A stretch of 64,000 bases of DNA from Cryoendolithus antarcticus (Eukaryota; Ascomycota; Dothideomycetes; Cladosporiales; Cladosporiaceae). The stretch is taken from positions 372,001-436,000 of the forward strand of contig NAJO01000015.1 of the NCBI GenBank assembly GCA_002077065.1, written 5' to 3'. The translations under genes and the position numbers were made by a program. The notes beneath the pieces are model-generated. The model was not told where the DNA came from, did not search any database, and saw only the letters and a list, made by a program, of their open reading frames with translations. Every line of letters starts with the position of its first letter. Position 1 is the stretch's first letter. Below, one piece after another: positions 15,860 through 60,318 of the stretch.

Positions 15860-16060
15860 CTCGAGATCTGGCGCAGGGCGTCCACTAGACGTCTTCGCAC
15901 AGCATCGAGTCCTCGCTGTCGCCGTGAGTAGAAGTATACATATTTGTACTCCCGCAATGGGCTTTTATAGCGCCATGGGGCCATCACTAGCAGCCAGAAG
16001 TCTAAGAATGTCCGTGCACCAGCATTTACTTGTCACATCATCTCCTCCCTCAGTACTGAA

Positions 16061-35796: not shown

Positions 35797-38745
35797 TCAT
35801 CCTACCAATTCGAAAGTACTGCAATGCCCCTCATCTCTGCTACTGAACCCCAAGCACACCGTAAACTCGCCCTTTGGCACAACCCAGTTCTGCACCTCTA
35901 CGTCCCAGTAGCTGCAGTCCTTCCTCGTCAGCTCCAGCTTCACCGGCTGCCGTTTCTCCTCATTGCTCGTCCCAACGAATATCTTGTCCCACTGACGCAG
36001 CACCCTGACAGGGAAGTCTATGGGCTTGCCGGAAGGAGACATAACGTTGGGAGGGAAGGAGAGATAGGCTTGCACGACTGCTTGGCCGGGAACGGAACCC
36101 GTGTTCGTCAGGGTGGCTTGGACTTTGAGGGCCGTGGTGTAAAGATCGGGATTGCCGCCTTCCGCTCCGCCAGCGGGTGAGAGGGGATTCGGGGTTGCGT
36201 ATCCGACTGGGTAGGGATATGCCCCTACTTTGATGGTAGACAGAGAGGCGATGTAGGGGTATACGTATTTCTTCAGATTTTTCATGCCCTTTGGCCAGAG
36301 CGCTTCAGCGGCATCTGGGACCTCGGTCGAGAGTTGCGGTGCTACTAGGGCGTCTGGACGGGGTGCAGGAGTAGCTCCGGAGAGGCCTTGAGGGTTGAGG
36401 AACATGGAGGAGAGCTTGAATATTGTGTAGGAGAGGCCGAAGCCGAATTCGTAGCGGGGTGCAATGGACTGTTTGTCGAAGTAGCGGTAGTCGATGTAGA
36501 GCCCTTCGGTGAAATCTTGTTGAGGGACGATGGCATTGGGTAGGTACATTATGCCAGACGTGGGACCGTAGTCTTTCTCATCTTTGGCAATGGTGTATGG
36601 CAGAGCACCAGAGGGATTGACGTCGCCGAAGAGAACGTCGGCTAGTGCGTTGCCCGCTTCCTCTCCAGGAAGGTGGGCGATCAGAACGGCTTTGACGCCG
36701 GGCAGGTCGATCCACTTCTCCAGGATGACGGGACCGACAGTATTGAGCATGACGATTGTGTCGCCACCACAGTTCTCTGCGACGCTCTTCACGAGCTTGT
36801 CACCGCCTTTCTGAGCGTACAGATCATTCCTGTCGCCTTTTACGCCGTTCCAGCTGACGAAGCCTTCGCCTGCATCAGCCGAGATGAATGCGATGCACAA
36901 GTCTTGCTCTTTCGCGAGCTTAGCCACCTTCTTGCCAGAATTGTCAGCAAGGCCAGAGAAGTCGACCCTGTCACCATCGAAGTTATGGTGCAAGGCGTCG
37001 ACTGGGGTACTCAGATACGGCAGCTCGACAGCACCAGATCCCCAGCCCATCGCGAGAGTTCCAGTGTTGCAGGCACGATCTTTGCAAGCATTGTTACCAG
37101 CCGGGTTCGGAAATGCGCCATCGCCGAAGACAGCGATCTTGACTTTCTCGTTTGTGGTCTCGATGCCGCTGCCATCACGCTTCAGCGGCAGGACATCGCC
37201 CTCGTTCTTGACCATGACGATGCCCTCAGCGGCGATCTGCCTTGCTAGATTATCGTGATCACCACCTTCAGTCGTGTTCTGGGTTTGCACAAACTTATTG
37301 ATCACACCCTTCTCCTTCGCGTCGGGCGATCCAGGGTGCAGCAGGCCCTCCTCGTCGTCCGTCCAGCTACTGAAGTTTGGTCCTCCACCATCCTTCTCAG
37401 CAGGCCATGCAGTCGCATTATCCTGCTCCAGCTGATACCAAGCAGCCACGATCCTCATCGTCATGTCGTTGAGTCGATCCATAGGTACGCTGGAGTTCAG
37501 CACTGCCTTCGTAAGCTCCGAACCCCACAATGACTTCCCGTCAGCCCAACTCAATCCATCACCAGGCATGTTCATGTCCAGCCCAGCAAGCGCCGAAGCC
37601 ACGCCGGATCTCTGGGCGAGCCAATCCGATTGCACAAAGCCCTGGAAGCCCAGCTCATCCTTCAAGATCCCGTTCAGCAGCGCAGAGTTTTGGCAAGCGT
37701 ACGAGTTGTTGACCTGGTTGTAGCTACACATCACGCTCGCTACACCAGCCCTGACGCTCTCGGCAAAGGGCCAAGCGTACATCTCTCTCATGGTCCGATC
37801 ATCGATGTTCGACGAGATCGCATTCGGTGTGCCCCACTCCCAACTCTGCCGGAAGTGCTCCTGCTCGTTAGCCACGTAGTGCTTCGCTGTGGCAATGACA
37901 CCTGAGTCCTGGATCCCCTTGATGGTCTGTGCTGCCGCATAGCTTTGCAGCACCGGATCCGCGCCGAAGCCCTCCCAATTCCTGCCTCCAGCTGGGAGTC
38001 TGCCGAGCGGTCCCATCGATGGCCCGAGCAGCACATTAATGCCCTTCTTTTTTGCCTGAAAGCCATGCGCCTTACCTCGCTCGTACATCAAATTCTTGTT
38101 CCACGTCGCGCCTACAGTGACACCAGCTGGGAATGCAGTAGCATTATCCGCGAAACGCAACCCCAGAGGCCCATCCTGCAGACAAAGACTGGGGAAGCCC
38201 AATCTCTCCACGGGTCCAGTATTGCCTACGCACATCCCCATACTCCACCCAATGCCGGTCGTAACATTCACCTTCTCCACCAGTGTCATCTGCCCTACAA
38301 GCTTCGCCGCTTTCTCATAGCTCTCGGACCAGGCTTTCACAGACCCACCTGCCGGACTAGGGTACCAGGGTGGTGACTGCCCATCTAGAGGCACTGACTT
38401 TGAGTACGCCCAGAACCCTCCAACGCCCAGAAGTAGGGACAGCGCAACGACGAAGAGGAGTATGAGACTGCAGAGGAATCGGGAGGGAATGAGATATCGT
38501 GTCCAGCCTGTCCTGGTGCGCTTTGGATCGAGCCATGCTAGGGATTGCTTCCCTGCGGTCTCTTTGCTGTAGGATCCAGGTTGCAGTGGCTGCGAGGCAT
38601 CGTCTTGGTAGGCGCGTTGCGAGGAGAGTGGCGTATCTTGGCCGTCTTCGGAGTCCGAGGAGTAGCGATACGGCTGGTCGTAGGGACCACGTGAGGGAGA
38701 GTCCGAGCGGTCTAGCTCGTAGACTTGGGGGTCCTTGGGGGACAT
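35797..38745 (-). CDS. GH3 beta-glucosidase, membrane-anchored (BglE-like)
   Basis: An intronless gene of 982 residues. A hydrophilic cytosolic N-terminus of about 90 residues is followed by one membrane helix (FLCSLILLFVVALSLLLGVG, about 90-110), so it is type II. The GH3 barrel starts AWSESYEKAAKLVGQMTLVEK. KHYVANEQEHFR is the conserved KH block, and the nucleophile is Asp374 in FVQSDW. The second GH3 domain (VKIAVFGDGAFPNPAG..) and a C-terminal fibronectin III-like domain follow. The enzyme should release glucose from beta-glucosides at the cell surface. This architecture matches the aspergillus BglE type. It is followed (about 3.7 kb away) by the CBM20 giant gene on the other strand, with RSC8 between. 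Confidence 0.93.
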   Translation of the reverse strand: MSPKDPQVYELDRSDSPSRGPYDQPYRYSSDSEDGQDTPLSSQRAYQDDASQPLQPGSYSKETAGKQSLAWLDPKRTRTGWTRYLIPSRFLCSLILLFVVALSLLLGVGGFWAYSKSVPLDGQSPPWYPSPAGGSVKAWSESYEKAAKLVGQMTLVEKVNVTTGIGWSMGMCVGNTGPVERLGFPSLCLQDGPLGLRFADNATAFPAGVTVGATWNKNLMYERGKAHGFQAKKKGINVLLGPSMGPLGRLPAGGRNWEGFGADPVLQSYAAAQTIKGIQDSGVIATAKHYVANEQEHFRQSWEWGTPNAISSNIDDRTMREMYAWPFAESVRAGVASVMCSYNQVNNSYACQNSALLNGILKDELGFQGFVQSDWLAQRSGVASALAGLDMNMPGDGLSWADGKSLWGSELTKAVLNSSVPMDRLNDMTMRIVAAWYQLEQDNATAWPAEKDGGGPNFSSWTDDEEGLLHPGSPDAKEKGVINKFVQTQNTTEGGDHDNLARQIAAEGIVMVKNEGDVLPLKRDGSGIETTNEKVKIAVFGDGAFPNPAGNNACKDRACNTGTLAMGWGSGAVELPYLSTPVDALHHNFDGDRVDFSGLADNSGKKVAKLAKEQDLCIAFISADAGEGFVSWNGVKGDRNDLYAQKGGDKLVKSVAENCGGDTIVMLNTVGPVILEKWIDLPGVKAVLIAHLPGEEAGNALADVLFGDVNPSGALPYTIAKDEKDYGPTSGIMYLPNAIVPQQDFTEGLYIDYRYFDKQSIAPRYEFGFGLSYTIFKLSSMFLNPQGLSGATPAPRPDALVAPQLSTEVPDAAEALWPKGMKNLKKYVYPYIASLSTIKVGAYPYPVGYATPNPLSPAGGAEGGNPDLYTTALKVQATLTNTGSVPGQAVVQAYLSFPPNVMSPSGKPIDFPVRVLRQWDKIFVGTSNEEKRQPVKLELTRKDCSYWDVEVQNWVVPKGEFTVCLGFSSRDEGHCSTFELVG

Positions 38746-39220
38746 GTCGACGGCGATGACTTTTGATTGCTAGCGCATATTGGATGTGGAGGAAGAGACG
38801 CTTGGCTGTAGCGACTGCAGCGCTTGTTCGCTTCAGCAGTTTCAAGTTCGAGAAGAGCTGCAATGTGCATCGAGTGTGAATTGGATTGGGCTCGTGAATC
38901 GTTTAGAGGTTCCCCTGCAGCGGAACTGCGTCCCGAATCTCCGCCAGGGCACGTGGAGATTGACGCTAGTGAAGGTAGATTCTGGGATGAAGTGAACATT
39001 GGGCACATACAGCTTATGCTTGTGCATTGGCCAGCCCACTTCGTAATGGGCAGACAGTGACGCCTGTGCAACATGAGCTTGACTCTCTCTCTCTCTCTCT
39101 CAAAGACCATATTGATACACAATTCTACTCGTGCCCGTGCCCTGCCCGTGCACCTTCGATTTCATGTAAACCCCATCCTTTCCCCGGACGCCAAAAGAAA
39201 ATCCTGCTCCTTTTCAATAC
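38746..39220. other. Spacer with CT microsatellite
   Basis: A (CT)n run of about 20 nt occurs at 39081-39101. The rest is the promoter side of the beta-glucosidase and the 3' flank of RSC8. Confidence 0.55.
39082..39101. repeat. CT dinucleotide microsatellite
   Basis: About ten tandem CT units read directly in the sequence. They are in non-coding DNA. Confidence 0.9.
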
Positions 39221-41364
39221 TCAGATCTCCAGCCTCACATACCCCTCCCCATCCCCCAACGGCTCAACAGCATCATTCCCATTCCCCTGCACGCCCACGA
39301 ACCCCTCCTCCATCCCACCAGCTCCTAGACCCACGCGTCCAAGTCTACCCTCAACCTCCCTGACCCTCTTGCGGAAGTTCAGTCTATCCAAGAACAGCCT
39401 CTGCCGCATCCTCTCGACTTCCCGCCGCTCAGCGAGTAACAGCGCCTCCATCTCCGAGAATTGCTGCATTTTCAGCTCGAGCTTCTGGATCTGCAGGTTC
39501 ACGGCTGCGGAGACTTGAGCCGTGAGCTGGCGCTCTGTGTGAGAGGCGAGAGCGGCCGAGCGGGCGGCTGTGAGAGCGAGGGCTTGTGTGGGAAGAGGGA
39601 GGGAGGATGATGAGGTATCGCGGGTGGCGACGGCGGTGGAGTCGATGTCCATGGACGTCGAATCTGACTCGGGCTTCACGGCTGCATCTGTAGCGCCAGG
39701 GTGCGAGTCGGCTTCTATGCGCGAGCGGAGCTGTTTGCGCATCTGCTCGACGGACTGCCCGGCTGCTTTGGCGGTCGTGGCTGGGTCTGCCAAGCCGGCT
39801 AGGAAGCCCATGACAGAAAGCACTGGATTGTCGTACTGGCTGAACGGCAAGCGGCCACCGCTGAGATAGCCGAGGTCTGTGTTGCCATTGCTGTTGGCAT
39901 TGTCGCCACCCTCGAGGTACTTGTCCTCGATCTCGAGCTGCAAGAAGCGCAGCACGCACTCCTCGCGAGTACGAGTACCAACGTGATCGGCAACCGACTC
40001 CCAGTTGTCGTCGAACATCTCCAGGCCTTCGAGGAGAAGAAGAAGCTCGGCATCAGACCATGGCTTTTCCTGCGTGCCGACTCCGCGGTAGCCTTCCTCT
40101 TCGAGCTTGACGTAGTCTGCTGCTGATGTCGATGAAGGGAAGCGTGCTTCTTGGTAGCATAAGCTGCAGAGATCGTATCGCTGGTCCTTGCTCGGCTTGG
40201 GCGTTGCAGCGTTCGCGAGCGGGTTCTTCGAATTGTGATATCGAAGACGAGTGCAGTTCTTACCGCAAGAATGACAGAAATGCTCCTTCGTCTCCTTCTT
40301 GACGAGTGAGGCGTCACTACGACCAGAAAGGTCTTTGCCCTTGTCATCGTAGATATTCCTGCGGACCTCGAGGTTGAGATCCGAAGACTGTGCTGTGGAC
40401 GTGGCAAGAGCTTCCGTTTTTGGGTAGGGCTTGCCAGCTGTGATTGAGCTGTTGGGCGCGGGCTGGTGTTGTTGCAGGCCGCGCGGTGTATCGGCTGTGA
40501 TGCGGAAATGACCTGTGAATGGAGGACCAATACTGGATGGTCGTGTGTCTGGGTCAACCTGGACTGGACGTCAGCTTGTGTCTCGCGTCGCCACGTACTC
40601 ATGCCAAGACATACCTGGTAGTTCACGAGTCCCCACTGCTCCAAGAACTGATGCACCCTCATGATCGCACACACATCTCCGGCCAAGTTTCTCCGGCACG
40701 CCGTGACTGTCAGGTACTCCGCAGGGTTCAGCCTATACGTGTTCACCATAAAGTCTCGATAGTCCTTGTAGACTGCCGGCGTCTTGCTGCGGTTGCGGTT
40801 GTTGAAGAACTCGGGCAATGCCTTCCTCTCGATAGAGTGAATGGCATGCATATCGAACCAAGCACTATACGACGGCATAATGATTGCGTGGGCCTGCTCA
40901 ATGAGGTGTGTACGCGCTGACTGCTCGGCATGAGCCTTCAGCATAGCTGGTGTGGTTGTAGGTGCGTCAGAAGTCACTGGAGGTTCAGCGTCAGGGATCT
41001 CATCGCCCTCAACCTCGTCAGCCCCACTACCCTCCTTCGTATCATCTAGCATCTCCTCATCGTCTCGGTCTTCCTCATCATCCTCGTCGTTCTCGGCTTG
41101 CTCCGCCTGGGGTGCGTCCGGCGCATCAAGAGGGTTGTCCGAGATCGCGCCTGCCGCTCCTGATGGGGCTGACTGGGCTTCAGCACTGTCTGTTGGGAGT
41201 GCGCTGTCCGTGTTGCCAGCCTCATCATCCATCTGTATGTCCTCCACCGTAGCTTCCTGGTCCGCGGTCCGCTCCGCCTCAATCGCCTCGTTCTCTGCCG
41301 CAATCAGCTGATCCGAGCCCTCTCCAGGCGCGAGACCATCTTCATCCGCAAAGCCGATCTCCAT
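39221..41364 (-). CDS. rsc8: SWI/SNF-RSC chromatin remodelling subunit SWI3/RSC8
   Basis: Exons 41364-40615 and 40558-39221 encode 695 residues. The 56-nt intron (GTATGT, CTGAC branch, CAG) is in phase 0. An acidic N-terminus (long Glu/Asp runs) precedes the SWIRM domain ([20 protein letters not shown] through [11 protein letters not shown]). A ZZ-like zinc cluster follows ([31 protein letters not shown], about 336-390). The SANT domain is at about 416-465 ([20 protein letters not shown]). The C-terminus is a coiled coil ([20 protein letters not shown]). This domain order is diagnostic. The protein is a scaffold dimer of SWI/SNF and RSC in the nucleus. All conserved blocks are intact. Confidence 0.95.
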
Positions 41365-42488
41365 GGCGTGCGATGGAGGAAGGGGTCAATGGATGATCAA
41401 GTCTCCCCGTCGCAAACCAGATATCGCATGCGCCGTGGGTTCGACCTCGACGATTCCTTGGCAGGGTTTGACGTCGTACGCGACAGTCACGAAACTTTTA
41501 TTTTGATGTTACGGCGACAGATGATGGGGTGGTATTCGAAGTTGCGTGTCGGATCGCGGTTTCGAGGGGACGTGTTGCTGGAGTTCTCGCGTTTGGATGG
41601 CACACGGAGCCGGCGAAACGTCTCACCGAGCGACGACCTCCGCCAAGGCGCATTCGTAGGGGATGGACGAGGGGGAGTACCTGAGAGGGCAGACCTGCTC
41701 GGAATGCGTGTACGGTCGAGAGTGCTCATATATACCGCGCTGCAACTGCGTGATTCCGGGAGTGCTGTTAACGAGAGACGGACGCAATTGTCAGATCACG
41801 GTCAAAGCTCAGGAACGCGCTTCCCTACACGCCACACACAAAACCTAGTGCTATGCTACGCGGCTTCAAGACCAACACCACGAACGTGTCGGCAACGATG
41901 AAGCACTATCGTCAATGAGAGCGTCATGTATCGCTTCATCGCGGTCCCGCAAGTTCGCGACCATCTGGTGCTGACTCCGCTATGGCTGAGGTGGCTGGGA
42001 TGTCACGAAGCCAGAAGGATCTCGCGAAAACACATACAGGAAGATGCAACACGCGTCTCTATGCAATTGAGCTGGTACCAGGTGAGCAACCGAGAGGTCA
42101 CTGGCTCCTCAAGTCGACATTTGAACCGCTCAAGGCGACTCTCGGAATTGTGTTCCTCGCGGCTAAGACTTGCCCCTTGCGTCGTTGACGAGCGCACTGC
42201 AGCAAATCAACCCTCGACGAGCACACGGCGAGAGGCTATGTAGAGAGATGGAATAGATCCAATGGCCGGGGCGGCTATTGGAACGGGCCTGCGTACCGTC
42301 CAGACCACAGTGCTGCTGGTCCGGTATGCTGGTTGTGGAGAGAGATTGCCTGGAATGCAGCTCGCGATGTCAACACGCGACCCCTGGGAACACGCAGGTA
42401 GGTCGGCTCTCTTGTCTCGCATGTTCGTGTTGCTGCACCATACTTGCATAGTTTGCAATACATACACTCTTTCCAAGGCTACGCCGCG
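41365..42488. other. Divergent intergenic region, 1.1 kb
   Basis: It lies between RSC8 (minus) and the giant CBM20 gene (plus). A plus frame at 41368-41901 (177 codons) has no recognisable domain and sits in the promoter of RSC8; I treat it as chance. No repeat was noticed. Confidence 0.45.
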
Positions 42489-45400
42489 ATGCGGTCCTCA
42501 TCATTCGTTCTGAGGGCAGCGCTCGCCGCGTTGTCCATACCTGGCGACACTCGAGTCGCTCTAGCCCAATCGCCGACGCCTGCGCAATCGTGGGCCCCTG
42601 CGGCAACTTGCAGCAATGGTGGTCCGAACCCGACTGGAGGCGCGTACACTGATCACTTCGGGGCGAACTACAGCGTTTCGTGCGGGCAGGATCTCGACGG
42701 CTATGTGTACGCTTCGGCCGGTGTCTCGGGTCAAGGCATTTGTGAGTGTGATCGAGTCCTTAGTCCCGCGATGACGATGCTAATTTCTTGTAGACGGCTG
42801 TTTCAAGGGTTGCGATAATCGCCCAACGTGTTCTGCGTTCGGCTACAACGGAACTGTCACCGGCCCAACGAGCGGAACGGGCACATGCTATTACAGAGCT
42901 GTCGCGGGGAACTATATATCTGCCAACATCTACGCAGCCGCAAACCTGATCAGCAACGGCACACCCCAGCTACCTTGTCCATACTACAATCAGACAGTCT
43001 ACACAGATGCCAGCAATGTGAAGTGGCAGGTCTAGTAAGTGCAATGCACTCCCTGGCGCCAAACCTCGCTAACGATGTGTGCAAGCTGTGGATTTGACCA
43101 GAACGCCAATGGTGCGGCCACTCCCGTGAGCTATGGCTACAACATGGCAGACTGTATAGCTCAGTGTGGAGCAGCCTCCGACTGCGGTTCGGTGTCTTAC
43201 GTCTACTCGGGCGACGAACAGACTGATGCTAGCACAAACAAGCAAGGCCAATGTTTCTTCAAGAAGGGCGCCTATCAAGCCAATGGTGGCGGTACTGCCA
43301 CAGTGAACTTCGCTGCCCTGGTGACTCCAAGGACCACAAGTGCCGCGGCTGGAGGAGCTACCATCACGACCACAACCGGCACATACTCTTCTGTGCCGTC
43401 GCCCACTGCTACGTGGACTCCTGCTGCGGCTTGCACGGCTGGTGGCCCGGCTGCTACTGGTGGTGCTTATACTGACGCGAATAGTGCTGTGTGGAACGTT
43501 GTTTGTGGTGCTGACAACAATAACGGGCAGTATTTTGAGAGCGCGAAGACCAACGGGCAGGGTATTTACTGTAAGTCAACTCACATGAACAGCTACAGTT
43601 CAATTCCTTGAACTAACTCCGAACAGCTTGTGCGAAGGGATGCGACGCCAGGCCATCTTGCACCGGCTACTCGTTCATCGGCAGCGTGACCGGACCGACC
43701 GGCGGCAGTGGTATATGCTACTATAAGAGTGCCGCTGCCAATGCATACTACTACAACTCGACTGTTTACGCAGCTGCGAACCTGATTTCCGGCACTCGCA
43801 GCCAGCCTTGCCCTGCATACAACGGCCAAAACTTGACCGCGAGCAACGGGGCCGTCTACTCGATCTACTGCGGTCAAGACTCCTCGACCACCAGCTCCTC
43901 GAACTCCGCGGTCCAGAACATGGCCCAGTGCGTGAATCTGTGCGAGACGACTGCAGGCTGTACAGGCGCATCCTACATCTACAGCACCTCGACCACGCAG
44001 ACTCCGCAGGGTGTGGATACCAAGGACGGCGAGGCGACCACTTATGGAACTTGCTACTTCCGCAACACTGCGCCGGTCACTCCTGGAGTTTCGACATATC
44101 GCAACTTTGCGCTTCGGATTGCGAACGCAGGGAGTAGTCCGCCTTCGGGCGCTACTACGAGCTTGTCGAGTACTTCGGCTGCGGCCGCGGCGACATCATC
44201 TGCTGCGGCTGCTTGCAACGGCACGCCCAGTCCCGGACTGTCTACACTGTCATGTAATGGGGCTAACGCTGGGGCTGGGAACGTTGGCCAGTATACAGAC
44301 GCTTGCGGATCATTGTACACTGTCTAGTAAGTTTCCCCTTTGATAGTACCAATGACATGGTGCTGACGTGATGTAGCTGCGGCAACGACACAGACGCCGG
44401 TGGCATCGGAGTGACAGCCAATCCTGCTACCATTCAAGGTTGCATGCAAGCATGCGACCAGTATACAGCGGCGACTTGCGTCGCGGCGACATTCAACGGA
44501 GGTTGCTAGTAAGTTGGCGGCACCCCATTGATGGTCGCTAACTGCTGACATCATGCACAGCCTCAAAACCTCATTCCGGACCTTGACGGCTGGTAATCCA
44601 AATCTTGCTGCCCTCGTGCGATATGTACCACCAAACCCGAACTACGCTGCTCCAGTCACATCCACAGCAGGTGGTTGTGGCTCTGCACTACCGTACGGCC
44701 TTGTTGCTGATGGCGCATCGGTGCTGGTCAATTTTACGAGTCCGACGGATGGCCTAGCACGGAATGCTCTCATACACGTTCCAAAGTTCTACTCCATAAC
44801 AAAGGCTTCGCCGGTCATTTTCGGGTTTCACGGCCAAAATGCTGATGCACCGACAATCGAATCCCAGACGGGCTTCAGCAACGGTAATCTCAACCCATAT
44901 GGCATTGCTGTGTACGTCAACGGGTATGGAAAGGGGTACCAGTCCAATCCAGCATGGGCGCCAGGTGGACAGTACGCGAATGTGGACGATATCGGGTTCA
45001 TCAACTACCTGATCGCCAACATTACCGCTACCTTCTGCGTCGACACCACTCGCATCTTCGCTGTCGGTCACAGTAACGGCGGTGGCTTCACTGGTGTCAT
45101 TGCTTGCGACCCTGGGCTTAGTAGCAAATTCGCCGCCATTGCTGGCAACTCCGCTGCACTGTACACCAACGTATCGAACAATGCGGTGCCGCTTCCCGAT
45201 CCGAATACCATCGACCCTGTTAACACTCCTGTCCAGCCTGTGTGCAGGATCAGCAAGCAGCTGCCAATCTTCGAATCGCATGGTACTGGCGACACGCAGA
45301 TCCAATATGCGGGTGCCACTGATCACAATGGCTTGGTCCTTCCCTCTCTCCCGCACTGGGCTACGAACAGAGCTCAGTTGGAGGGCTTCAGCACCACGAA

Positions 45401-48400
45401 CTACACCACGTACCCCAGCAGTGGCGTCACGATGTACCAGTTTGGTGGTGCTGTGGGTCAGCTAGGTATCATCACGCACTATCGTCTGGAGAACTGGCCT
45501 CACGCCTGGCCGTCTGTTGCTGGAGGCGCACCAATCGATATCGCGCCGAAGATGATGGACTTCTACTATCGCTTCTCTGATCCCAATCGGCCGTTGGTAT
45601 ACTCTCCGACTGTCAGCTCCAGCAGCAGTTCCTCAATGACAATGTCTTCTACCAGCAGCAGCTCCAGCGCGGCTTGCACTGCTCAGGCTGTCAGCTTCTC
45701 AGATCTGCGCACCACGGCCTTTGGTGAGAGTCTGGCACTTGTAGGATCGGTCCCACAGCTCGGAACTTGGGATACGTCAAAAGCTATCGCAATGACCTCC
45801 TCCAACTACAGTACCGACTACCCGCAATGGCAGACGATTGTCACGTTTCCACTGGGCACTTCTATGGAGTTCAAGTTCCTGTGGTTGCACAATGGGTCCA
45901 TAGATTACGAGGATGGCGTCAATCACGCCTATACAGTACCAGCAGCTTGTACGACGCCGGCGCCTACTCTCCGGTACTCGTGGCAGTATTCGACAACATC
46001 GACTTCCAGTACCAGCACAGCGACTTCTACTAGCAGCTCCTTGAGCACGAGTTCGAGCAGTAGCGTTCCGACATCGAGTAGCAGCTCCGTGGGCTCGAGC
46101 AGTAGCTTAAGCACCTCCAGCAGCACTCCCATGAGCACAAGCAGCACCGCAATCACTTCGAGCAGCAGCAGCAGTCTCGCGACAACCAGTAGCAGCTCCG
46201 CAACAACCAGCTCGTCCTCGACTTTGACATCTTCGAGCTCATCGAGTACCTCAGCCGCCTGCTCTGCGGTGTCAATCATGTTCAAGGAGCTGAGAACGAC
46301 GGTGGTGGGCGAGAGTGTCTACCTGGTGGGCTCTGTTCCGCAGCTCGGTTCATGGAATACGAGTAACGCTATACTGCTAAGCGCTAGCAACTACACCAAC
46401 GCATACCCGCAGTGGACCACTACAGTGACCTTCCTGGTTTCGACCTATTTCGAATACAAGTATTTGTTGCAACATGCCGACGGAACCCGAGAATTTGAGG
46501 CAGACCCCAATCATGTATACACTGTGGCCGCTACTTGTCCAAGCACACCGCAGTCCTGCAACGATTCTTGGCAGTACCAGGTCACTTCAACTTCGTCTAC
46601 ATCTACGGCCAGTCGCACCACAAGCTCAAGCTCCAGCTCGACCTCGACAAGCGCTACTGCTACCTGCACCGCCGTTACAATCGCCTTTTCGGAATTGCGA
46701 CGTACAGTATTCGGAGAGGCCGTGTATCTCCTGGGCTCCGTTCCGCAGCTGGGTGCCTGGAATACCTCCAACGAGATCCTCATGTCGAGCAGAAATTACA
46801 GTGATATGTATCCGCAGTGGACAACAAGTGTCAGCTTCCCACTGGGGACCTATTTCGAATACAAATACCGCGTCGGTCACACTGACGGCAGCCAAGAGTT
46901 TGAGAGCGGCGCGAATCACATGTATACCGTTTCATCCACCTGCCCGAACACGCCGCAATCCTGCAACGACTCATGGCAGTATATGACGACTTCGAGCTCC
47001 TCGATGAGCAGTACAAGCACAAGGTCGTCAAGTACAACATCATCGATCACGACATCATCCAGCTCGTCGAGTGCATCCGCTTCGGCTACCACATGTCCAG
47101 TCATGTTCTCCGAGCTACGTCAGACACAGTTCGGCGAGAGTATATCCCTTGTGGGTGCGATCCCTGAACTCGGAAGTTGGAATACATCTTCAGCGGCATA
47201 CATGCTTGGCGATAACTACACTCAAGCGTACCCGCAGTGGCAGAGGACCTTGAACATTGCTCCGGGAACCTCTTTCCAGTACAAGCATATATTATTCGCT
47301 ACGGACGGAACTATAACGTACGAGAGCGATCCAAATTTGAGCTACACTGTGCCTCTCACCTGCAGCAGTGCCAACCCAGCGATGAGATACGACTCTTGGC
47401 AGTACCCTCCCGCGAGTACGACCTCAACCTCCTCCACGTCGACTACCTCTTTTTCCTCGTCTGCAAGCGCTTCCTGCACTCAAAGCATCACGTTCAACCT
47501 ACTCAGAGGCACCGCCTTCGGGGAGAGCATATCCATCATCGGATCGGCGCCTGAACTCGGATCCTGGGCAGTCAACGCCTCCGTGTACATGACGGCGACC
47601 AATTACTCCGAATCTTACCCTCACTGGCAACGCACAGTCACGTTTCCCAGGGCTGGCGCAGGCTTCCAATACGCGTATATTCTCTACCGGGCAAATGGAG
47701 ACGTCGTCAGTGAAGAACCGCCGAACCGATCGTACTATTTTTCGAACGTCTGCGGCTTTGCAGCGACGGTCTCGGATTCCTGGCAATACCCTGCTTCTAC
47801 CTCGAGCTCGTCCTCATCTATGCTCGCGACGTCGTCCTCTTCTTCATCGTCGCTCGCGACTTTGTCGTCATCGACTGTCGCCTCATCGAGTTCCCGCTCC
47901 TCAATTGTTAGCTCATCGTCCGCCAGTGCGTCGTGCACTCAGAGCTTGACATTTAGCGTGTTACGCAGCACTCGTTTTGGAGAGAGCATCTCCGTGATTG
48001 GGTCGGCTCCAGAATTGGGCACTTGGAACGTTTCGAACGCCGTCTATCTAACAGCCAACAACTACTCGAGCGCTTACCCGCAGTGGCAGCGGACAGTGAC
48101 CTTCTTGACTGCTGGATCTGGCACCCAGTACAAGTATATTCTCTTCCAGGCCAACGGTACTATCCTCTATGAAGATCCTCCGAATCGATCATACTACTTC
48201 AACAATGACTGCGGTTTCGCTGGCTCAGTCTCGGACTCTTGGCAGTATCCCATCACCACAACAATGTCGTCTACAAGTACGTCTACAGCGACTACTGGCT
48301 CTGCTACTAGTACCTCCACTTCCACGGCGTGTGCACAGGTGCCTGTGCAGTTCAATGTCCTTGAGGCGACCGGCTTCGGTGAAAGCATCTCGATAGTAGG

Positions 48401-51400
48401 GTCCATCTCTCAGCTGGGATCGTTCAACACGTCGAATTCCGTCTACATGGTTGCGACCAATTACTCTGATAGCTATCCCAACTGGCAGAGAACCGTCAAC
48501 CTCCCGCCATCGACGTCACTATATTTTAAGTACATAAAGTACCACGTTGATGGCTCCTTGGAATACGAAGGCGGGAACGACAGGCCCTACACAGTCCCTG
48601 CGAACTGTGACTACCCAGCGGTGCTCAACAATGTCTGGCAGCCTGTGCCCACTACGAGTTCATCAAGCAGCTCTTCGACCCGGACAAGCGCGTCTACAAC
48701 TTCATCTGCTTCGACAGCATCATTTTCCGCGGTATGCTCAGCTGTTGCGGTCCAGTATAATGTCCTGAGAATGACCAGCTTCGGTGAGAGTATCTCACTC
48801 GTGGGATCCGCTCCTGAACTCGGATCGTGGAACACCTCCAACGCGAAGTACATGTTAGCCACGAACTACACAGACAGCTACCCGAACTGGCAGACAACTA
48901 TCAACCTTCCACCTGGTCTCTCCACTACTTTCAAGTATCTGATCTATCACACAGACGGTAGCTTTGTTTACGAGGCTGGCGCTGATCGATCCTACGTCGT
49001 CCCCCCGAATTGCGACTATCCAGCCGTGCTGCAGAACTCCTGGCAGTACGCATCGACCTCGACCTCATCTGCTACTTCTTCGACCTCAGCAGCTCCAAGT
49101 CCCACCTGCACGCAAGTCACCATAAGTCTGAACGAGTACCGGGCAACCGCATTCGGAGAGAGCATCTCGATAGTAGGCTCTGTACCCGAGCTCGGCTCCT
49201 GGAACGTTTCTCAGGCGGCTTACCTAGTCGCTGCATCGGACTATAGCGATAGCAATCCGCACTGGACACGGACACTCAACTTCACGCCTCCTGGCGTATC
49301 GTTTCAGTACAAAGCTATAATCTACCATGTCGATGGATCTTATGATTATGAGGCTGGAGCAAATCACTTCTACGTCGCCCCATCCTCATGTTCAACGACT
49401 GCGCAGATTTCGAACTCGTGGCAATATGCGTCCACTGCTACTGCAAGTGCGACGACCACCTCCAGCTCGAGCAGCTCCGCTTCAGCCACATGCACAAGCG
49501 TCGCTGTCACCATGAGCGTCCTCAAGGCAACCCAATTTGGGGAGAGCATATCAGTGGTCGGGTCGGATCCAGCCATTGGTTCTTGGAACGTGTCAAACGC
49601 TGCGTATCTGCTGGCGGCTTCCGACTACAGCTCTAGCAATCCGCGATGGACTCGAACGCTGTACTTCACTCCGGGAGCAGCATTCGAGTTCAAGTTCGTC
49701 CAGTACTTCAACGACGGCACGTTCGAGTACGAGTATGGGGCCAACCGTTACTATGTAGCACCGACATCTTGCTCGGCGAACGCTCAGATCTCGGCTACAT
49801 GGCAAGAACAGCCATCGACGACCTCAGGTGCATCGTCGACCAGCTCCTACGTCTCCGCAACGCCGACATGCACGAGCGTGTCCATCGCATTCACCGAGTA
49901 TAAGGCTACCGCCTTCGGGGAGAGTATCTCCATCGTGGGATCTATACCAGCCTTGGGATCATGGGACACCTCACGAGCCGCCTATCTTCTGGCGACCAAC
50001 TATTCACCAGACAATCCTCAGTGGTCAAGGACGCTCGACATCGGACCGCTTGGAACAGGATTCTCATACAAGGCGATCTTGTTTAGAAGCGATGGCACCG
50101 TCGTGTACGAGGAGGGCGATGATCATTACTTCGTCGTGCCCAACACCTGCACGAATATTTCGATTACCAACACCTGGCAAACCGCAACTTCGACTTCATC
50201 TTCTACCTCGTCAACGCTCTCGAGCACCACCTCAAGTGCTACTTCGACATGCACCGCCATCCCGGTGAGATTCTCAGTCTATGAGCAGACTAGCTTCGGC
50301 GAGAGTATCTCGGTCGTCGGTTCGGTGCCGCAATTGGGCAGCTGGAATACCACGAAGTCCGTTTACATGACGGCCAGTGCGAACTACAGCGCAAGCTATC
50401 CCGAATGGAGCAGCGGAGTGGTGTACTTCGCCCCAGGAAGCCAATTCAGTTATAAGTACATTCGTTACTCTACCGATGGCACCTTGACCTATGAAGGCGG
50501 TAGTGACCGTTTCTTCATCGTACCGAGTACTTGTCCGTCTAGCACAGTCAGTCTTCAAGATACTTGGCAGGATCTGCCCGCGACTTCGACCCCTTCACCT
50601 CTCCCAACAGCCTCCAGCACGAGCACTTCGACGTCAGCGTCCGCAACACCCAGTGGGCCTCCTCTCGACTGCCCCAGGGATGCTGGTAAGTACTACACCG
50701 ACCAGTACAGCAATCAATTCACTGTGCTGTGCTATCGTGATATTTACGAAACGGGCTCGGTAGATCGTAGAGTGGCTACCGACTTGGCCAACTGCATCGA
50801 GCAATGCGACTATGACCTGGATGGCGCTTGCACTAGCGTTTCATGGCTCGTATCCGGCCAAGACGAGCAATGGTGCTACTATCACTCAGCCAACTCGACA
50901 ATCATTCAAGATCCTGACGGCGCTGTTGCATACTCAGCTAGGCTGACATCTCTTGTCAACGGCACACAGAGTTCGAGCTCAAGCAGCATCATGGGTACAA
51001 CCACCAGCTCTCTTAGTACATCCATGAGTTCGGCCATCAATACCATGAGCACGTCGTCTTCTAGCACTGCATCGTCTTCGATGTTGCCATCGCCATCCCC
51101 GGTGTTTAGTCCAGGGCCCTGTCCAGCAAGTAATGGTACGAGCTACACCGACGCCATGGGTATGACTTACACTCTCTACTGCGACTCTGACAGCAGTCCG
51201 GGATCCTACAACGCCGCACCCGCGTCTTCTTTCGGGTCCTGTATCAACCAGTGTGACCAGGCTACTGAATGCGCTGCTGTTGTTTTCAACGGTAACGATC
51301 TGAGCGGAGGCTTCTGTTACTTCAAGCGATCCGTGGAGCAGATCGTGCCCTCCACTGGTATACGACTTGCTGTCCGTGTCACACCGGGTGGCTACCCGTC

Positions 51401-54116
51401 TGCCTCGAGCTCTTCGTCCGCATCCACGAGTACGATGATGATGGCGAGTACGACCGCCTCTTCAACATCCACGAGCTCATCGTCTGCGACAGCAACTGCC
51501 ACCCTTGCTCCACTCTGCCCAGGCTCAAACGGAACCACTTACACTGATCAGGCTGGAGCATCGTACATGATCGTATGTGACACTGACTGCGCACCTGGAG
51601 CGTTCGGTTCCATTCCTTCGCCAAACTTTCGTGCTTGTATCGACGCCTGCGACGCGCAGGCCGACCCTGCATGTGGTGCTGCAGTCTTCGTAGGCTCTGA
51701 GATCACCGGAGGCAACTGCTACTTCAAGTCTCCACCTACGGGCTACACATCATCACCTGGCGTCAACCTAGCTGTCCGTGTTATACCAAGCTACGGAACG
51801 TCGACCACAGCTTCGTCCACCACTTCTTCCCGTTCGACGAGCTCCGGCGCAAGCTCCACCAGTTCCTTAATACCGCCACCATACTCATCTCCAGGGGCGA
51901 CGACGAGCAGCACCACTTCTATGGCGATGAGCACATCGAGCGTAGCGATGAGCACATCAAGCGTAGCGATGAGCACATCAAGCGTAGCGACAAGCTCAAG
52001 CTCGAGATCCGGCAGCTCGAGCTCTACTCCCAGCACATCCAGTCTCTCATCGACAGGTGCTGCGACTCCGCCCGGATACAGCGTTCCATCTAGTAGCAGT
52101 AGCACCGTCATGAGTACAAGCAGTGCCAGTAGCTCGACAACATCCTCCTCCGCGATGATGAACTTTTCCTCGACGTGGAGCCGGTCGTCGTCATCAGTGG
52201 TCTCCAGCAGCAGCGGTAGCTCCGCAGGACCCCCAGCGTACGGTTCACCAGCTGGTGCCTCGACCACATCGACATCTTCAACAAGCTCCTCGATGACGAC
52301 TTCATCGCCGTCTAGCTCGAAGTCTTCATCCACCTCCTCCGTATCCACGAGCTCGTCGGCTTTACTCGGTGCTTCGCCATCATCCAGCCCGACATCCTCC
52401 ATCATCGCTTCAACGAGCTCATCTCGACTATCGGCCAGCTCGACAACTTCGGCTGCTTCATCGACCGCCACTTCGACTTCTTCCGGTGCGGGTATGACCA
52501 CTAGTATGCCATTGAGCACGTCTGTGGCTGTGTCGCCGCCGGCATACACGCCACCATCCTCGGCTGCGTCTTCCTCGTCCTCTGCGCAATCTTCAAGCAC
52601 ATCATCAGGCGTGGCGGCTTCACCGAGCTCCTCTCCCGCTGCTGCATCAACCAGCCAGAATGCTCCTCCACCTTACTCGGGCCCACAACAGCTGGCAACT
52701 TCATCTTCGCCCTTTTACATGAGCATCAGCTCGTCGTCGTACACCTCGATGACGCCTTTGCCGAGCTGTGGCGCCGGCACTATGTCCGGCGGATCAACCA
52801 GCATGGTAGGCAATGGCTCCGCTTGTGCAGACTCCTACGGCAACTCCTACAATGTTACTTACGGCTCGACTCAGTACACGGGTAAAGTCACAAAGAGAGC
52901 GAGTACCACTACCGTCGACGCCTGTCTCACACTGTGTGACCAGACTGCCGACTGTAAGGGAGCTAATTACGTTGGTACTGAGTGCACGCTTTTCTCGGAG
53001 ATCACTGGCACGACGGTGGTTACTACTGGACCCCCTGCTGTTGCTGCAAGTCGTCCACCTGATGTCAGCACTGTGTACACTGCGCCTCCTACGTCCACGC
53101 CGCCCGTTTCTACGACACCTGGACAGCCGCCTGCATATGATGTCACCACCAGCTCATCAGCGACAACGACGAGCGTCAGCAGTGGACCGGGCTCGACACC
53201 AGCCTTGACTACTGCACCAATGACCACTGCGTCGGCTTCGAACTCGGTGGCATCTCCGCCAGTCTATGGCGGTAGTGCTACTCCGAGCTCGTCTGCAGTT
53301 GTCAGTCCAACATCATCCGCCATCTCTTCTGGTATGAGCGGTGCCTCGAGCAAGACGTCTGCTAGCACCAGCGGGCCTGCATCACCAGCAGGCAGTAGTG
53401 CGTCCGCGTACGGTTCATCGTCGGTAGTCTCCGCGTCAATGTCTGGCAGTATGCCTGGCTACAGATCCATGTCCAGCGGCCCATCCGCATCATCTGCTAC
53501 AAGCATCCCCGCCGGGTACGGCTCGTCGTTGCCTACCTCTGGCGCAGCCTCGACGCCCCTGTCGTCGTACGGCCAGATCCCAACGCCTACCGGCAGCGTC
53601 AGCGGATCTACTGCAGCTTCATCAGGCACTCCCTCTTCGCCAAGCTCACCCTCAGGCTACATCACCAATTCACCTACCACGTCGTCGTCTTCTACAAGCA
53701 CGCCTACGCTTTGTCCTGCCTACGACAACAAGAACTACACCGAGTCCAACGGCGCGAGCTACACAGTCACCTGCAACAAAGTCTACACTGGCCGTATCTA
53801 CATGCGCTACACAACACCCCAGTCCCTTGCATCTTGTCTGGCATTTTGCGATCAGTACGCTGCTTGCGTAGCGGTGTCAAACGATGACTCCGGCTGCACG
53901 CTGTACAGCTCTACGACTGGGACGACAATAAGTCAAGGTGGTAGCGGTGCATCGAAGGTGAACGGTCCGACGAGCAATGTGGTGACAGTGACAGTGTGTG
54001 GAGTCAGGCCAACGACGACAGTATTCGCCACTGCGACGAGCACGATGTGCCCGGCTGACGTAATGTGCACTGCTGCGCAGAGGTACCCGCAGGGCTTCAT
54101 TGGGAATGGGAGATGA
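42489..54116 (+). CDS. Giant secreted protein: CE1 esterase-like domain, 12 CBM20 modules, 10 cysteine-rich PAN/Apple-like modules
   Basis: Six exons: 42489-42741, 42794-43034, 43086-43570, 43627-44326, 44377-44508 and 44561-54116, in frame throughout, give 3,788 residues. A signal-peptide-like start (MRSSSFVLRAALAALSIPG) is followed by five Cys-rich modules of the CP..YTD..G..Y.V.C type, with internal DC..C. Residues about 640-945 form an esterase resembling feruloyl esterases/PHB depolymerases (FGFHGQNADAPT, nucleophile Ser775 in GHSNGGG, GTGDT, HAW). Twelve CBM20 modules follow (about 975-2608), each about 100 residues with GES, LGSW, P.W and C..W blocks, divided by Ser/Thr linkers. Five more Cys-rich modules and Ser/Thr/Pro regions with PPxY motifs make the rest. 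No GPI-like tail. Likely extracellular or wall-associated, binding starch-like glucans; the esterase substrate is not known. Confidence 0.9.
51927..51989 (+). repeat. Three 21-bp tandem repeats encoding MSTSSVA
   Basis: The unit ATGAGCACATCNAGCGTAGC(G) occurs three times in a row, with one base difference between the first and the other two. It lies in a Ser/Thr linker of the giant CBM20 gene and keeps the reading frame, so it looks like recent slippage expansion. Confidence 0.9.
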
Positions 54117-57100: not shown

Positions 57101-59112
57101 GGAGCGCAAGTTGGGTCGATTGACTTGAAATGCGGTAACGGAGGATGTCGGCAAAGCATTGATGTCCCTTCAAGAATACTGCCACACATCCAGGAGGGTT
57201 GCACATGAGGGTGCTCACCGACAGCAGCCGTTGGAAGATCTGCTACCTTTCGCGTGGCTTCTGCGTGGCTTTTGTCGATCTCCACGCTGCCACACGCGTA
57301 GCTTTCCGTCCTTGACCCTGTCAGCCACGCCGCGCTTGCAGCGATCTGCACAGCCGAACCAACGACATCATGAAGTAGAGTTTTGGGAGTATAGTACTTG
57401 CGACATTACATGAACCGCGCCGCGAAGTCTAGCCTGCACGATGCGATGCAATTGGACACGTCGTTCCTGGGCAGTCTGTGACTACCACCCGGCTCAATCG
57501 CGCCGCTGTACATTACCAATGAGATAGATGAAGCGACCGTTACAGGGCAAGCGCCGTTGCTTCGGGAAAGACGCCGCCTGTGAGATCCTCGTATCGCACT
57601 AGCCATGGCGTAGGCGAGATGACGGCACAGCGCCCAAAAGCCATCAAACCTGCAATTCTGTTCAAAACCATGGCAATGTGTGATGATCTGTTGTGGTACA
57701 GGCCGATGCGATCAACGGCATCTTGCGCCTTCGAATCATCGCGCGGCATCACGGTCCTACAGCCCTGGCAGTGCCGTTCTTCGGGTCAGTGATCAATGCC
57801 ATTGTGATGCCCAACAGCCGGATCGCCCCCTCACGTCGACTAGGATATCTCATCAACAGATGTCTCTAACAAGCATAGTCGAAGCGACATGATGATCTGC
57901 TCTAGCCTAGTCCGTGAAGTTTTCCCGCGCCGGTATTTCTTTTACTTGCAGCATGATCTGCACTCGAACAGGGCCTATCCTGCCATCACATCCGTCAAAC
58001 ACGCTGCTCCACATGGCGCGGCGGGCTAACCCTGTCCATCCACTACTGGCTAGTACTCCAATGACAGCACGTCCACTGTCACCCTACAACACTCCACCGC
58101 ATGCAGGGCGAGGGCTGAACAAAAGCTGCCGAATCACCCATCCTAACAACGGCCGGTCTGCCTCCAGCCCTGCATGCTTCCTAAGCACCTTTGTTGGAGC
58201 CGGCGCCGCAAAGTCTGAACTCTGAGGGTGGCGTGCATATCCCCGGTAGGCGCTTCGGGCTCACAAACCAACTTTACGCTCGCTGCACTCCAAACGCAAT
58301 CAAGGCCACGATCTGCGTTGCAACCCTATCGGCACTCAAGCTTACGACATCTTCGCAGCGCTGAATGTAACCGAACACGCTCACGGTCCACCAAGATCGT
58401 CGCTCTCGCACGTGGTGTACCTGAGAAAACGCAATACCTCGTGGCCATCCGACTTTCTTCTCTCTGATCACCACGGATCAACCTGCCTGAGCTGCCACGC
58501 GACCGGTCGATCATCTTCCAATCCGGAAGACACTCCTTGTTGCGCATCTCATCCAGCCCCCTCGGATCCTCGCTCTCATCACTCGGCGACCGGGGCACTT
58601 GCCTAGATTAACAGCCAGGATCACTCAATCAATCCCACCAACCCCGGCCCGTAGCAAATCATCGCCAGGCGTTCGTGCGTTAACTCCTGCACTTGCGCAT
58701 GCAACGTCCGTAGCCGTTGTCCGTTAGCGATCACTGCCGTTCGAAACCAGGACCTGGGTGCATGGGCATCTTTCTTTGCCCGTCCCGCTTTTCTTGATCC
58801 GAGCGTCGACTAGCAGTAGTGAGCTTCCATTCGACTTCTACTACCCGAGTCGCATCGCCAGCAGGACCAAGCTGTCGATATTGCTGTTCATCTATCGAAG
58901 AAGTGCACGACTCCTCTCGCTTTGTTGTGCATTTGGCAGGCGTTGCCTTGATCGACATCGATCTTGGAGGATCGCGACTTCCTCTTCTGGTCCACCTTTG
59001 ACTTCCTGGACTTCACTTCCTTGTCCATCACCATCACTTGACGAAGCGCGACACCCCACTTCTCCTGCCTCAATCTTGAATCGGTCTCTACATCACACCA
59101 CTGGTGAATCGA
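54117..59112. other. Long gene-poor stretch, about 5 kb
   Basis: No frame has a recognisable domain. The longest is a minus frame at 57351-56548 (267 codons), overlapped on the plus strand by 56654-56917. The plus frame is Cys-rich (CRCGECPVPV, DDACGGC) but has no match I can name. A 16-nt near-repeat (AAGCCTTNTTTGACTT) occurs at about 54573 and 54717. The final kb probably holds the leader of the C2H2 gene. Confidence 0.4.
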
Positions 59113-60318
59113 ATGGCAGTCGTTGGCACGATGGCATATCTACCACGAGATAGCTACCCTGGCCAAGTGCAACAATATCCTCTGTACAACGATCGGGTGC
59201 CGCAGGGCCAGGCAGAAGTGATCACGTCAATACCCACGAGTCAATACAATGGCTATAACCAGTTGCAGAGTGCTACAGCATACCCTGCATCGACAAGACC
59301 ACAACAATCAACATCACAGATCGTGTCCGATGATGGGCACAAGATGTCGTTACCGTCAATATCGAATCTGTTGGGCATAGCAGATGGTGACCGGACAGTA
59401 CAGGACGGTCGAGCGCATGAGCAACAGGCAGCCCACACGTCGCAACCTGAGCACAGCTACGCAGCAACGCATGCGATGCCCATCAATGCGTCGCAGCAGC
59501 AAGCCCCCTCACATCCTCCTCAATCGCAGTACGCCACGAACACAGCAGAAGGCGACGCGAAAGGTCGCGCATCGCATCCTCCACAAGACCAGCGGAATAA
59601 CTATCGATCCATGAATCCTCCTCCACCACTCATACGGTCAGACTCCATAGCAGACACCACCGACTCGCCCTCAACAATCTCAACAGCCTCCTCCTCAATC
59701 CCTGCTCAATCGTACTATCTCGGCTCAGCACTGAATAACGTTGAAGCCGATCATCAACAACGCACAGTCGTAGCGCAGATGGTGAAGCGCGCCTCCGTGC
59801 CTTCGCAACCCAACACGTCACCCTACGACACCTCGCCCTTCGGCCACCCTTCGTCGAGCTACTCTGCAAGTCCAGGAACACTCCACTCAAACGGCCCACC
59901 GAATTACTACTCCCCTCAAGTCATTCCCGATCCGAATGCAGCCAATTACCCACTCTCAGGCCTGTACACGCAACGGCCACTGCCGCAACAGTTTCCGCCT
60001 ACTTACCCGCCTCAACCGCCACCTGCTCACCTGGCTTCCAGCGAGCAAGCGTACTACACGCAGCATCACCACTATATTTCGCAGTCTTCAGCAGCCACTT
60101 ATCCGCAGTCTCAGGACCGGTATATCTGTCCTACTTGTAGCAAGGCTTTCAGCCGGCCGAGTAGTCTCAAGATCCATTCTCACTCACATACAGGCGAGAA
60201 GCCCTTCAAGTGCCCGCACGGAGGCTGCGGGAAGGCGTTTAGTGTGAGGAGTAACATGAAGAGGCATGAGCGGGGTTGTCATACGGGGCTTGGTGGTGGA
60301 GGAGGAGGTAGTGAGTGA
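59113..60318 (+). CDS. mtfA: C2H2 zinc-finger transcription factor, MtfA/RsrA-like
   Basis: A single-exon gene of 401 residues. MtfA-type factors regulate secondary metabolism, stress and development in aspergilli. A short motif [17 protein letters not shown] lies near residue 77. A long Gln/Pro/Ser/Tyr-rich disordered region follows, then two C-terminal C2H2 fingers: [20 protein letters not shown] and [20 protein letters not shown], with the HTGEKPF linker. The SLPSIS motif plus these fingers are the MtfA signature. The protein ends in a Gly-rich tail. I chose the ATG at 59113 because the frame's upstream start at 59104 is GTG. Confidence 0.82.

Follow-up and report, generated by a model that had tools for sequence, protein, structure and literature searches.

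The array gene and its product

We analysed a 64,000-nucleotide stretch of the Cryoendolithus antarcticus genome (contig NAJO01000015.1, positions 372,001 to 436,000 of the forward strand; hereafter the window, whose own numbering is used below), and in particular a gene at 42489-54116 on the plus strand that encodes a very long protein with twelve CBM20 modules, here called the array protein. Its six exons give 3,788 codons and one terminal stop. The introns are 50-56 nt long, all five with GT..AG ends, and exon 6 lies within a single open frame of 3,194 codons from stop to stop. This agrees with a first-pass annotation of the same DNA, which had proposed a secreted protein of 3,788 residues encoded by six exons. 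The product has a mass of 389 kDa before any glycosylation, and Ser and Thr make up 33% of it. Its features, with amino acid (aa) positions and the basis of each assignment, are as follows.

42489-42741, 42794-43034, 43086-43570, 43627-44326, 44377-44508 and 44561-54116, +: six exons (translated model)
42489..42566, +: signal-peptide-like N-terminus, aa 1-26 (judged by eye and hydropathy)
42624..44615, +: five N-terminal PAN/apple-like repeats, aa 46-133, 146-242, 286-378, 388-484 and 544-622, interrupted by introns (Pfam PAN_1 and a local iterative hidden Markov model, HMM)
44670..45584, +: feruloyl-esterase-like alpha/beta hydrolase of carbohydrate esterase family 1 (CE1), aa 641-945 (PDB 9j07, NCBIfam)
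45072..45074, +: putative catalytic Ser775, in GHSNG (alignment; Ser in 25/25)
45291..45293, +: putative catalytic Asp848 (alignment; Asp in 24/25, Glu in 1)
45501..45503, +: putative catalytic His918 (alignment; His in 24/25, gap in 1)
45678..45983, +: CBM20 module 1 (Pfam CBM_20)
46266..46571, +: CBM20 module 2 (Pfam CBM_20)
46668..46976, +: CBM20 module 3 (Pfam CBM_20)
47088..47390, +: CBM20 module 4 (Pfam CBM_20)
47475..47783, +: CBM20 module 5, in which site 1 is most changed (Lys578 to Ala, Trp590 to Ser; Pfam CBM_20, alignment)
47934..48242, +: CBM20 module 6 (Pfam CBM_20)
48336..48638, +: CBM20 module 7, with Phe at the Trp543 position (Pfam CBM_20, alignment)
48741..49043, +: CBM20 module 8 (Pfam CBM_20)
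49110..49421, +: CBM20 module 9 (Pfam CBM_20)
49494..49802, +: CBM20 module 10 (Pfam CBM_20)
49872..50177, +: CBM20 module 11 (Pfam CBM_20)
50253..50567, +: CBM20 module 12 (Pfam CBM_20)
50670..51776, +: three PAN-like repeats downstream of the array, aa 2641-2730, 2791-2871 and 2923-3009 (local HMM)
51777..52808, +: long Ser/Thr-rich stretch, aa 3010-3353 (sequence, substitution rates)
52809..53951, +: final two PAN-like repeats, aa 3354-3432 and 3655-3734, with a Ser/Thr/Pro-rich stretch in between (Pfam, local HMM)
53952..54113, +: C-terminal tail, aa 3735-3788, of the type VTVC..RTTTV.TTAT.TTCP (sequence and hydropathy)

The N-terminus looks by eye like a secretion signal, as the first reading had it; its best 19-residue hydropathy window is 1.11, and the start of the Cladosporium fusiforme homologue P0024 is near-identical to it. 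By hydropathy, no hydrophobic anchor was found at the C-terminus, the peak 19-residue value being 1.31 anywhere in the protein and 1.23 in the last 60 windows. The tail type is recognisable by eye in the homologues P0004 and P0005 too. A Pfam search of the last exon and the first 630 residues returned no amylase, glucoamylase or other glycoside hydrolase (GH) domain at E ≤ 1, in keeping with the original view of an array without an amylase domain, so that none of the starch-hydrolase catalytic domains GH13, GH14, GH15 or GH31 is represented. Nor did it return a dockerin or cohesin, by which a scaffoldin would be recognised.

Twelve CBM20 modules with an altered site 1

Pfam CBM_20 matches the last exon in twelve stretches (E 6.4e-293, 946 bits), and each module, cut out singly, matches the family alone (12/12 at E ≤ 0.01). 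The first-pass annotation had counted the same twelve, with starts that differ from those of the HMM by about 14 nt at most. When the whole genome was scanned (46.97 Mb in 149 contigs), the window modules scored 77.6-99.9 bits against a CBM_20 cut-off of 23.3. Mean identity among the twelve is 46% (range 36-69%). Between them run linkers of about 18-89 residues with a Ser plus Thr content of 60-90%. A weak Pfam AvrRpt-cleavage match (E 0.0016, 18.2 bits, cut-off 20.3) falls inside one CBM20 and was dismissed as a chance hit. According to PMC7410926, CBM20 generally occurs as a single copy, and two copies are reported for Chlamydomonas SAGA2 (PMC13167743). At the level of titles and abstract openings, the literature yielded no CBM20 esterase and no CBM20 array of such size.

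The nearest solved relative of the modules is the CBM20 of Aspergillus niger glucoamylase (1ac0/1acz; E 2e-31), with which they share a Cys at both ends: one at the start of the module in 12/12, by eye, and one at glucoamylase position 604 in 12/12. That enzyme joins one CBM20 to a GH15 domain, whereas the array protein has twelve and no GH15 domain. The binding-site residues were compared in A. niger glucoamylase numbering, with positions taken from PMC10180094 and PMC9920598. Site 1 (Trp543, Lys578, Trp590) is incomplete. Trp543 is present in 11/12 modules (Phe in module 7) and Lys578 in 11/12 (Ala in module 5), but Trp590 is replaced in all of them, by Tyr in nine, Phe in two and Ser in one. 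Site 2 is kept, with Tyr556 and Trp563 in 12/12; position 527, the Tyr of site 2, is Phe in eleven modules and Val in module 2.

The absence of Trp590 extends to all 53 modules aligned from the window, a second copy on contig C71 (described below) and the related proteins P0002, P0003 and P0047. Seven other CBM20 rows of the genome were aligned, the GH31 CBM20 pair being left out, and five of these keep Trp590, namely the glucoamylase (C58), the chitinases (C78, C112) and the laccase-type rows (C59, C65); in the two PAN-CBM20 rows (C84, C24) position 590 is Tyr, as in the array. PMC9920598 describes site 1 as well conserved across CBM20 and site 2 as variable. By keeping site 2 and losing Trp590 of site 1, the array thus shows the reverse of the conservation described there. 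Judged on sequence, the loss weakens the expectation that these modules bind like the glucoamylase CBM20 and leaves their membership of the CBM20 family untouched.

A CE1 esterase-like domain adjoins the array

The esterase domain lies directly upstream of CBM20 module 1. A solved feruloyl esterase, PDB 9j07, aligns with it over 288 residues (E 2e-49, 172 bits), and the LpqC PHB-depolymerase-like chain scores 12.6 bits. The NCBIfam model for extracellular short-chain polyhydroxyalkanoate (PHA) depolymerases of type 1 gives 71.7 bits (E 6.7e-20), and since this is below its cut-off of 150, the domain was filed as CE1 feruloyl-esterase-like. The putative catalytic residues were placed in an alignment of 25 sequences, the window included. 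With its Ser-Asp-His triad the predicted alpha/beta hydrolase is a CE1 domain, and the reading that the protein has no catalytic domain was rejected on the strength of the 9j07 match and the intact triad. The domain may be easily missed because the Pfam match in this region is weak, a Peptidase_S9 hit at E 0.14 being the only one.

The catalytic domain and triad are shared with fungal CE1 feruloyl esterases (PDB 9j07; SF5/SF6 of PMC5084320). The main text of that CE1 review contains 'CBM' or 'carbohydrate-binding module' 0 times; the array protein adds both PAN repeats and twelve CBM20 modules to the esterase.

The local iterative HMM recognises ten PAN-like repeats in total, five before the esterase and five after the array. 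In the N-terminal region Pfam PAN_1 matches five stretches (E 9.6e-14), and the last exon has a PAN_1 match at E 1.5e-11. Within the latter, the final two repeats match PAN_1 (1.3e-5) and PAN_3 (6.1e-5), both above cut-offs; two of the three immediately after the array fall under the Pfam cut-offs (PAN_4, E 5.8e-4 and 0.012), and the third, aa 2641-2730, has no Pfam match at E ≤ 1 and was recognised by the local HMM. Four Cys are invariant over six aligned repeats, by which these qualify as PAN/apple repeats.

A second copy and purifying selection

Contig C71 carries a second copy (402523-390835, minus strand), an open frame of 3,787 residues with twelve CBM20 modules. Its exon ends are those of the six window exons, transferred by alignment. 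All five introns have GT..AG ends; one donor reads GTCAAT and one intron is 110 nt long. Over 2,667 residues, P0002 is 98.7% identical to the C71 copy and 89.8% to the window copy.

The two copies were compared over 3,757 aligned codons by Nei-Gojobori counting (own script), giving 0.55 synonymous (dS) and 0.071 non-synonymous (dN) substitutions per site and a dN/dS of 0.13. By region, dN/dS is 0.055 for the esterase, 0.087 for all CBM20 together (0.024-0.255 for single modules) and 0.19 for the linkers; the highest value among the measured regions, 0.47, is at aa 2990-3330. Because these ratios are low, translation of the frame is very likely, and all modules are under constraint. A split into separate genes was rejected on this constraint together with the open frame of the C71 copy.

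Along the gene, dS is uneven. It is 0.12-0.20 in modules 9, 10 and 12 (0.12 in module 10) and 1.2-2.2, near saturation, in modules 4-6 (2.2 in module 6), jumps which suggest mosaic ancestry or gene conversion, either between the copies or with a third lineage. Contigs C57 and C71 each carry an array gene and a GH15 gene. Most of the CBM20 genes, the esterase genes and the alpha-glucan synthase are likewise paired on different contigs, the CBM20 glucoamylase (C58) being single, and as a result of this pairing the genome looks duplicated or hybrid.

Protein family and origin of the array

The best protein relatives are from Rachicladosporium sp. CCFEE 5018 (P0002) and Oleoguttula sp. CCFEE 5521 (P0003, P0047); Rachicladosporium antarcticum is now named Cryoendolithus antarcticus, according to PMC10739867. 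RNAi has already been applied to a Rachicladosporium strain (PMC12560822). Among P0002-P0045 the esterase domain, or a piece of it, is present in 44/44 and CBM20 in two, P0002 with 12 modules and P0003 with 11. The esterase count is partly true by construction, as both queries held the esterase; both held CBM20 modules too. Two further proteins lie outside this set: P0046 is an amylase with one CBM20, and P0047 is a six-module fragment without the esterase. The P0002 model stops short, at 2,740 aa, and closes with a tail of unrelated sequence; P0003 is a single predicted protein of 3,650 aa. P0003 is named 'glycoside hydrolase 15 protein', and GH15 is not among its listed Pfam domains.

Sixteen long homologues (P0004-P0019) have the esterase and none has CBM20. 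PAN repeats stand on both sides of the esterase in all six of those mapped (P0004, P0005, P0006, P0010, P0014, P0018), and esterase identity to the window is 41-65% (P0004, P0005, P0006, P0010, P0018). The members come from Elasticomyces (P0005-P0009), Hortaea (P0010-P0017), Aureobasidium (P0018/P0019) and an unnamed source (P0004), and we take these PAN-CE1-PAN proteins to belong mostly to the Dothideomycetes. They share with the array protein the same PAN repeats around the same esterase and differ from it in lacking the twelve CBM20 modules; on this comparison, the array protein is a CBM20-loaded version of the PAN-CE1-PAN family. Seven of the eight Hortaea proteins list PF00187 (chitin-binding), and P0014, rescanned, scores 25.5 against the cut-off of 27.8. 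Three Elasticomyces proteins (P0006, P0007, P0009) are named 'Histone-lysine N-methyltransferase set-6'; P0009 lists a SET domain and P0006 continues beyond the usual tail into other sequence. The misnaming of the three probably stems from fused gene models.

In a quick esterase tree (43 rows) the window gene is nested among the PAN-CE1-PAN homologues; the closest neighbours of the CBM20-bearing proteins are a Cladosporium group (support 84), followed by Elasticomyces (support 95). The Cladosporium model P0024 ends soon after the esterase, so its CBM20 status beyond that point is not readable from the model. From this tree and the rarity of CBM20 among the esterase homologues, the array seems to have been added to an esterase family that already existed. 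In a quick module tree, each window module groups with the module of the same number in the C71 copy and, for most modules, with that of P0003 or P0047. The array therefore predates the split of these copies and strains, and its expansion in this strain only was rejected. We infer that P0003 has 11 modules through loss or fusion within the stretch 9-11.

The PAN-CBM20 frames on C84 and C24 group with the array modules (43 rows on one side of a branch with support 95). They lie inside the array in the best tree, although a tree that holds the array together is not rejected (approximately unbiased test, AU p 0.377). The first two protein searches scored the best 7,999 and 8,000 word-sharing candidates, which Ser-rich proteins may crowd, and a search on words of module 8 found P0047 alone among 122 scored candidates (proteins of about 789-2,511 aa). 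That CBM20 arrays occur only in this lineage is thus a limited statement, which holds within the candidates scored.

Other CBM20 genes and the neighbourhood

By our own count, the genome has 35 CBM_20 matches in eleven genes, 24 of the matches being the two arrays. The other genes are the GH15 (C58), a GH31 pair, a GH18-type chitinase pair (C78/C112), a laccase-type pair (C59/C65) and the PAN-CBM20 pair (C84/C24), so that in 8/11, arrays included, CBM20 is attached to a partner other than a starch hydrolase. Both chitinases (L011:1989-3632 on C78 and L012:2193-3839 on C112) have an intact DGFDFDIE motif and a C-terminal CBM20. The closest solved relative of the first is A. fumigatus ChiA1, of the fungal/plant type (class III; E 2e-74). 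About 2.3 kb from the L011 chitinase, on the opposite strand, is a GH31 frame that also has a CBM20.

On C59 and C65 (L016:800-3131, minus strand, and L017:2391-4781, plus strand), two CBM20 pieces stand just before a multicopper-oxidase frame (Pfam, on L016). These are probably CBM20 laccases of the kind of ZtrLac1A. As reported in PMC6700816, that enzyme of the related fungus Zymoseptoria tritici resembles the array protein in having CBM20 on an enzyme of phenol chemistry, and differs in having a single CBM20 and in being an oxidase rather than an esterase. The PAN-CBM20 frames are at L014:3374-4375 (minus strand, C84) and L015:2450-3490 (plus strand, C24), their PAN matches lying just below the Pfam cut-offs. 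Two further esterase-like stretches lie close together at C24:632644-635871 (L021-L023), one with two internal stops and the other in two pieces; the first may be a decayed feruloyl esterase and the second a spliced one. On C84 there is one esterase-like stretch, free of stops. Two alpha-glucan-synthase-like frames, of 2431 and 2432 aa, have amylase and GT5 matches.

Elsewhere in the window, Pfam identified the following genes.

7991-9094, -: kinase
10728-11972, -: alcohol dehydrogenase (ADH)
13580-15856, +: chitin-synthase-like GT2
15971-17101, +: SET
21172-23025, +: major facilitator superfamily (MFS)
31455-33374, +: GATA
35800-38769, -: GH3
39802-41385, -: SWIRM
59080-60315, +: C2H2

No amylase was found among these neighbours in the ten frames scanned, out of 30 frames of at least 230 aa, and Rfam and tRNA scans of the window gave no match.

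Discussion

Our tentative preference, which may well prove wrong, is that the array is a many-times-weak alpha-glucan tether that holds the esterase in the fungus's own matrix, be it wall or slime. The signal-like N-terminus would export a modular esterase of ~390 kDa, probably heavily O-glycosylated, whose CE1 domain, to judge by its triad, may be an active serine esterase akin to feruloyl esterases. The twelve CBM20 modules, spaced by flexible Ser/Thr-rich linkers, would bind alpha-1,4-linked glucose chains, mainly via the aromatics of site 2. We propose that each module binds weakly because its site 1 is without Trp590, and that the weak modules would together bind strongly, through avidity, with the flanking PAN repeats possibly contributing more contacts to sugar or protein. 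The likeliest ligand would be the fungus's own wall or slime alpha-glucan, either pullulan-like or a wall alpha-glucan from the alpha-glucan synthase, and the expected outcome is that the esterase, with the whole protein, is retained within that matrix.

A rock-inhabiting fungus with a slime of this kind is Knufia petricola, which we take to belong to another class. Its slime is about 80% pullulan and tightly cell-bound (PMC5847175), and in Aureobasidium the alpha-glucan synthase is reported to be crucial for pullulan (PMC11449735). As a working analogy, the Ruminococcus bromii amylosome protein Sas20 (PMC9112005) is likewise described as a flexible multi-domain starch binder with a Thr-rich linker; it differs in being bacterial, in its modules and in belonging to a cohesin-dockerin system.

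Several points weigh against a tether to the fungus's own glucan. The first to note is that the PAN-CE1-PAN homologues (P0018, P0019) of the pullulan producer Aureobasidium lack CBM20. The best-known ligands of CBM20 are starch and maltooligosaccharides, CBM20 binding to pullulan or wall alpha-glucan was not found in the literature consulted, and the genome has a GH15-CBM20 gene and a GH31-CBM20 pair, so starch-type substrates are handled. Furthermore, the loss of Trp590 need not weaken starch binding, since the CBM20 of potato DPE2, which is without it, is credited in PMC9920598 with conferring good affinity for granules on a fusion protein. Nor did avidity emerge between the two domains of an R. 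bromii starch binder in the work reported in PMC9112005. Finally, the N-terminus is only modestly hydrophobic (best window 1.11), the signal having been judged by eye.

The main rival is that the array fixes the esterase on foreign starch, from an algal partner or plant debris, where it would remove ester-linked phenolics or acetyl groups and so aid amylases. We regard this as rather unlikely, though worth serious attention. CBM20 is the classical starch module, the GH15 and GH31 genes just mentioned fit such a role, and the CBM20 laccase of Z. tritici binds beta-cyclodextrin with a Kd of about 33 uM, which its authors read as starch targeting (PMC6700816). Against it, Trp590 is gone from all twelve modules but kept in the five rows of the same genome that belong to glucoamylase, chitinase and laccase, and CBM20 is found on a chitinase too. 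In addition, we are aware of no ester substrate established for starch granules. On balance, we think that the own matrix is somewhat likelier as ligand than foreign starch.

If the array does tether the esterase to the fungus's own matrix, the CBM20 of the chitinase, the laccase and the PAN proteins could be seen in the same light, as a general address label for an alpha-glucan wall or slime inside which phenolic or ester chemistry, for example melanin- or phenol-linked, takes place. This wider idea is speculative, and we would not expect it to hold in full.

The first-pass annotation had suggested a scaffold or adhesin and had noticed neither the esterase domain nor the PAN repeats. The multivalent glucan binding in that suggestion remains probable, given the twelve CBM20 modules on Ser/Thr-rich linkers, but a bare scaffold or adhesin does not fit a complete CE1 esterase adjoining the array. 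A version in which the esterase is incidental, and PAN and CBM20 bridge cells and alpha-glucan or rock and biofilm, finds some encouragement in the great length, Ser/Thr-richness and multivalency of the protein and in its ten PAN-like repeats. We nevertheless consider such an adhesin or cross-linker improbable. The triad is intact, the esterase is under stronger constraint than the whole protein (0.055 against 0.13, though some modules are lower still), the homologues share the esterase rather than the CBM20, and hydropathy reveals no hydrophobic anchor.

Less probable again is a hydrolase of polyesters or other esters, such as a short-chain PHA depolymerase or an acetyl or lichen-phenolic esterase, for which the CBM20 modules serve purely to localise the enzyme. 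The NCBIfam type-1 match at E 6.7e-20 points this way, as does the Aureobasidium homologue P0018, which exceeds the Pfam Esterase_PHB cut-off (28.1 against 23). However, the NCBIfam score is less than half its cut-off (71.7 against 150), Esterase_PHB is not listed by Pfam for the window protein at E ≤ 1, and the feruloyl esterase 9j07 far outscores the LpqC chain (172 against 12.6 bits). An artefact of gene modelling, whether separate genes or a mis-joined frame, is very improbable: P0002 does end early and P0047 spans only six modules, but there are two copies, each a single open frame through exon 6, separated by a dS of 0.55 at a dN/dS of 0.13, and P0003 of another strain was predicted as one protein of 3,650 aa.

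Twelve CBM20 modules that share the loss of a main site-1 Trp, each under purifying selection, offer a natural test of avidity against affinity in starch-binding modules. Names assigned automatically from CBM20 can be misleading, as that given to P0003 illustrates. If it is true that the ligand is the fungus's own alpha-glucan, then CBM20 on a fungal laccase, chitinase or esterase would be an address label for wall or slime and not a sign of feeding on starch.

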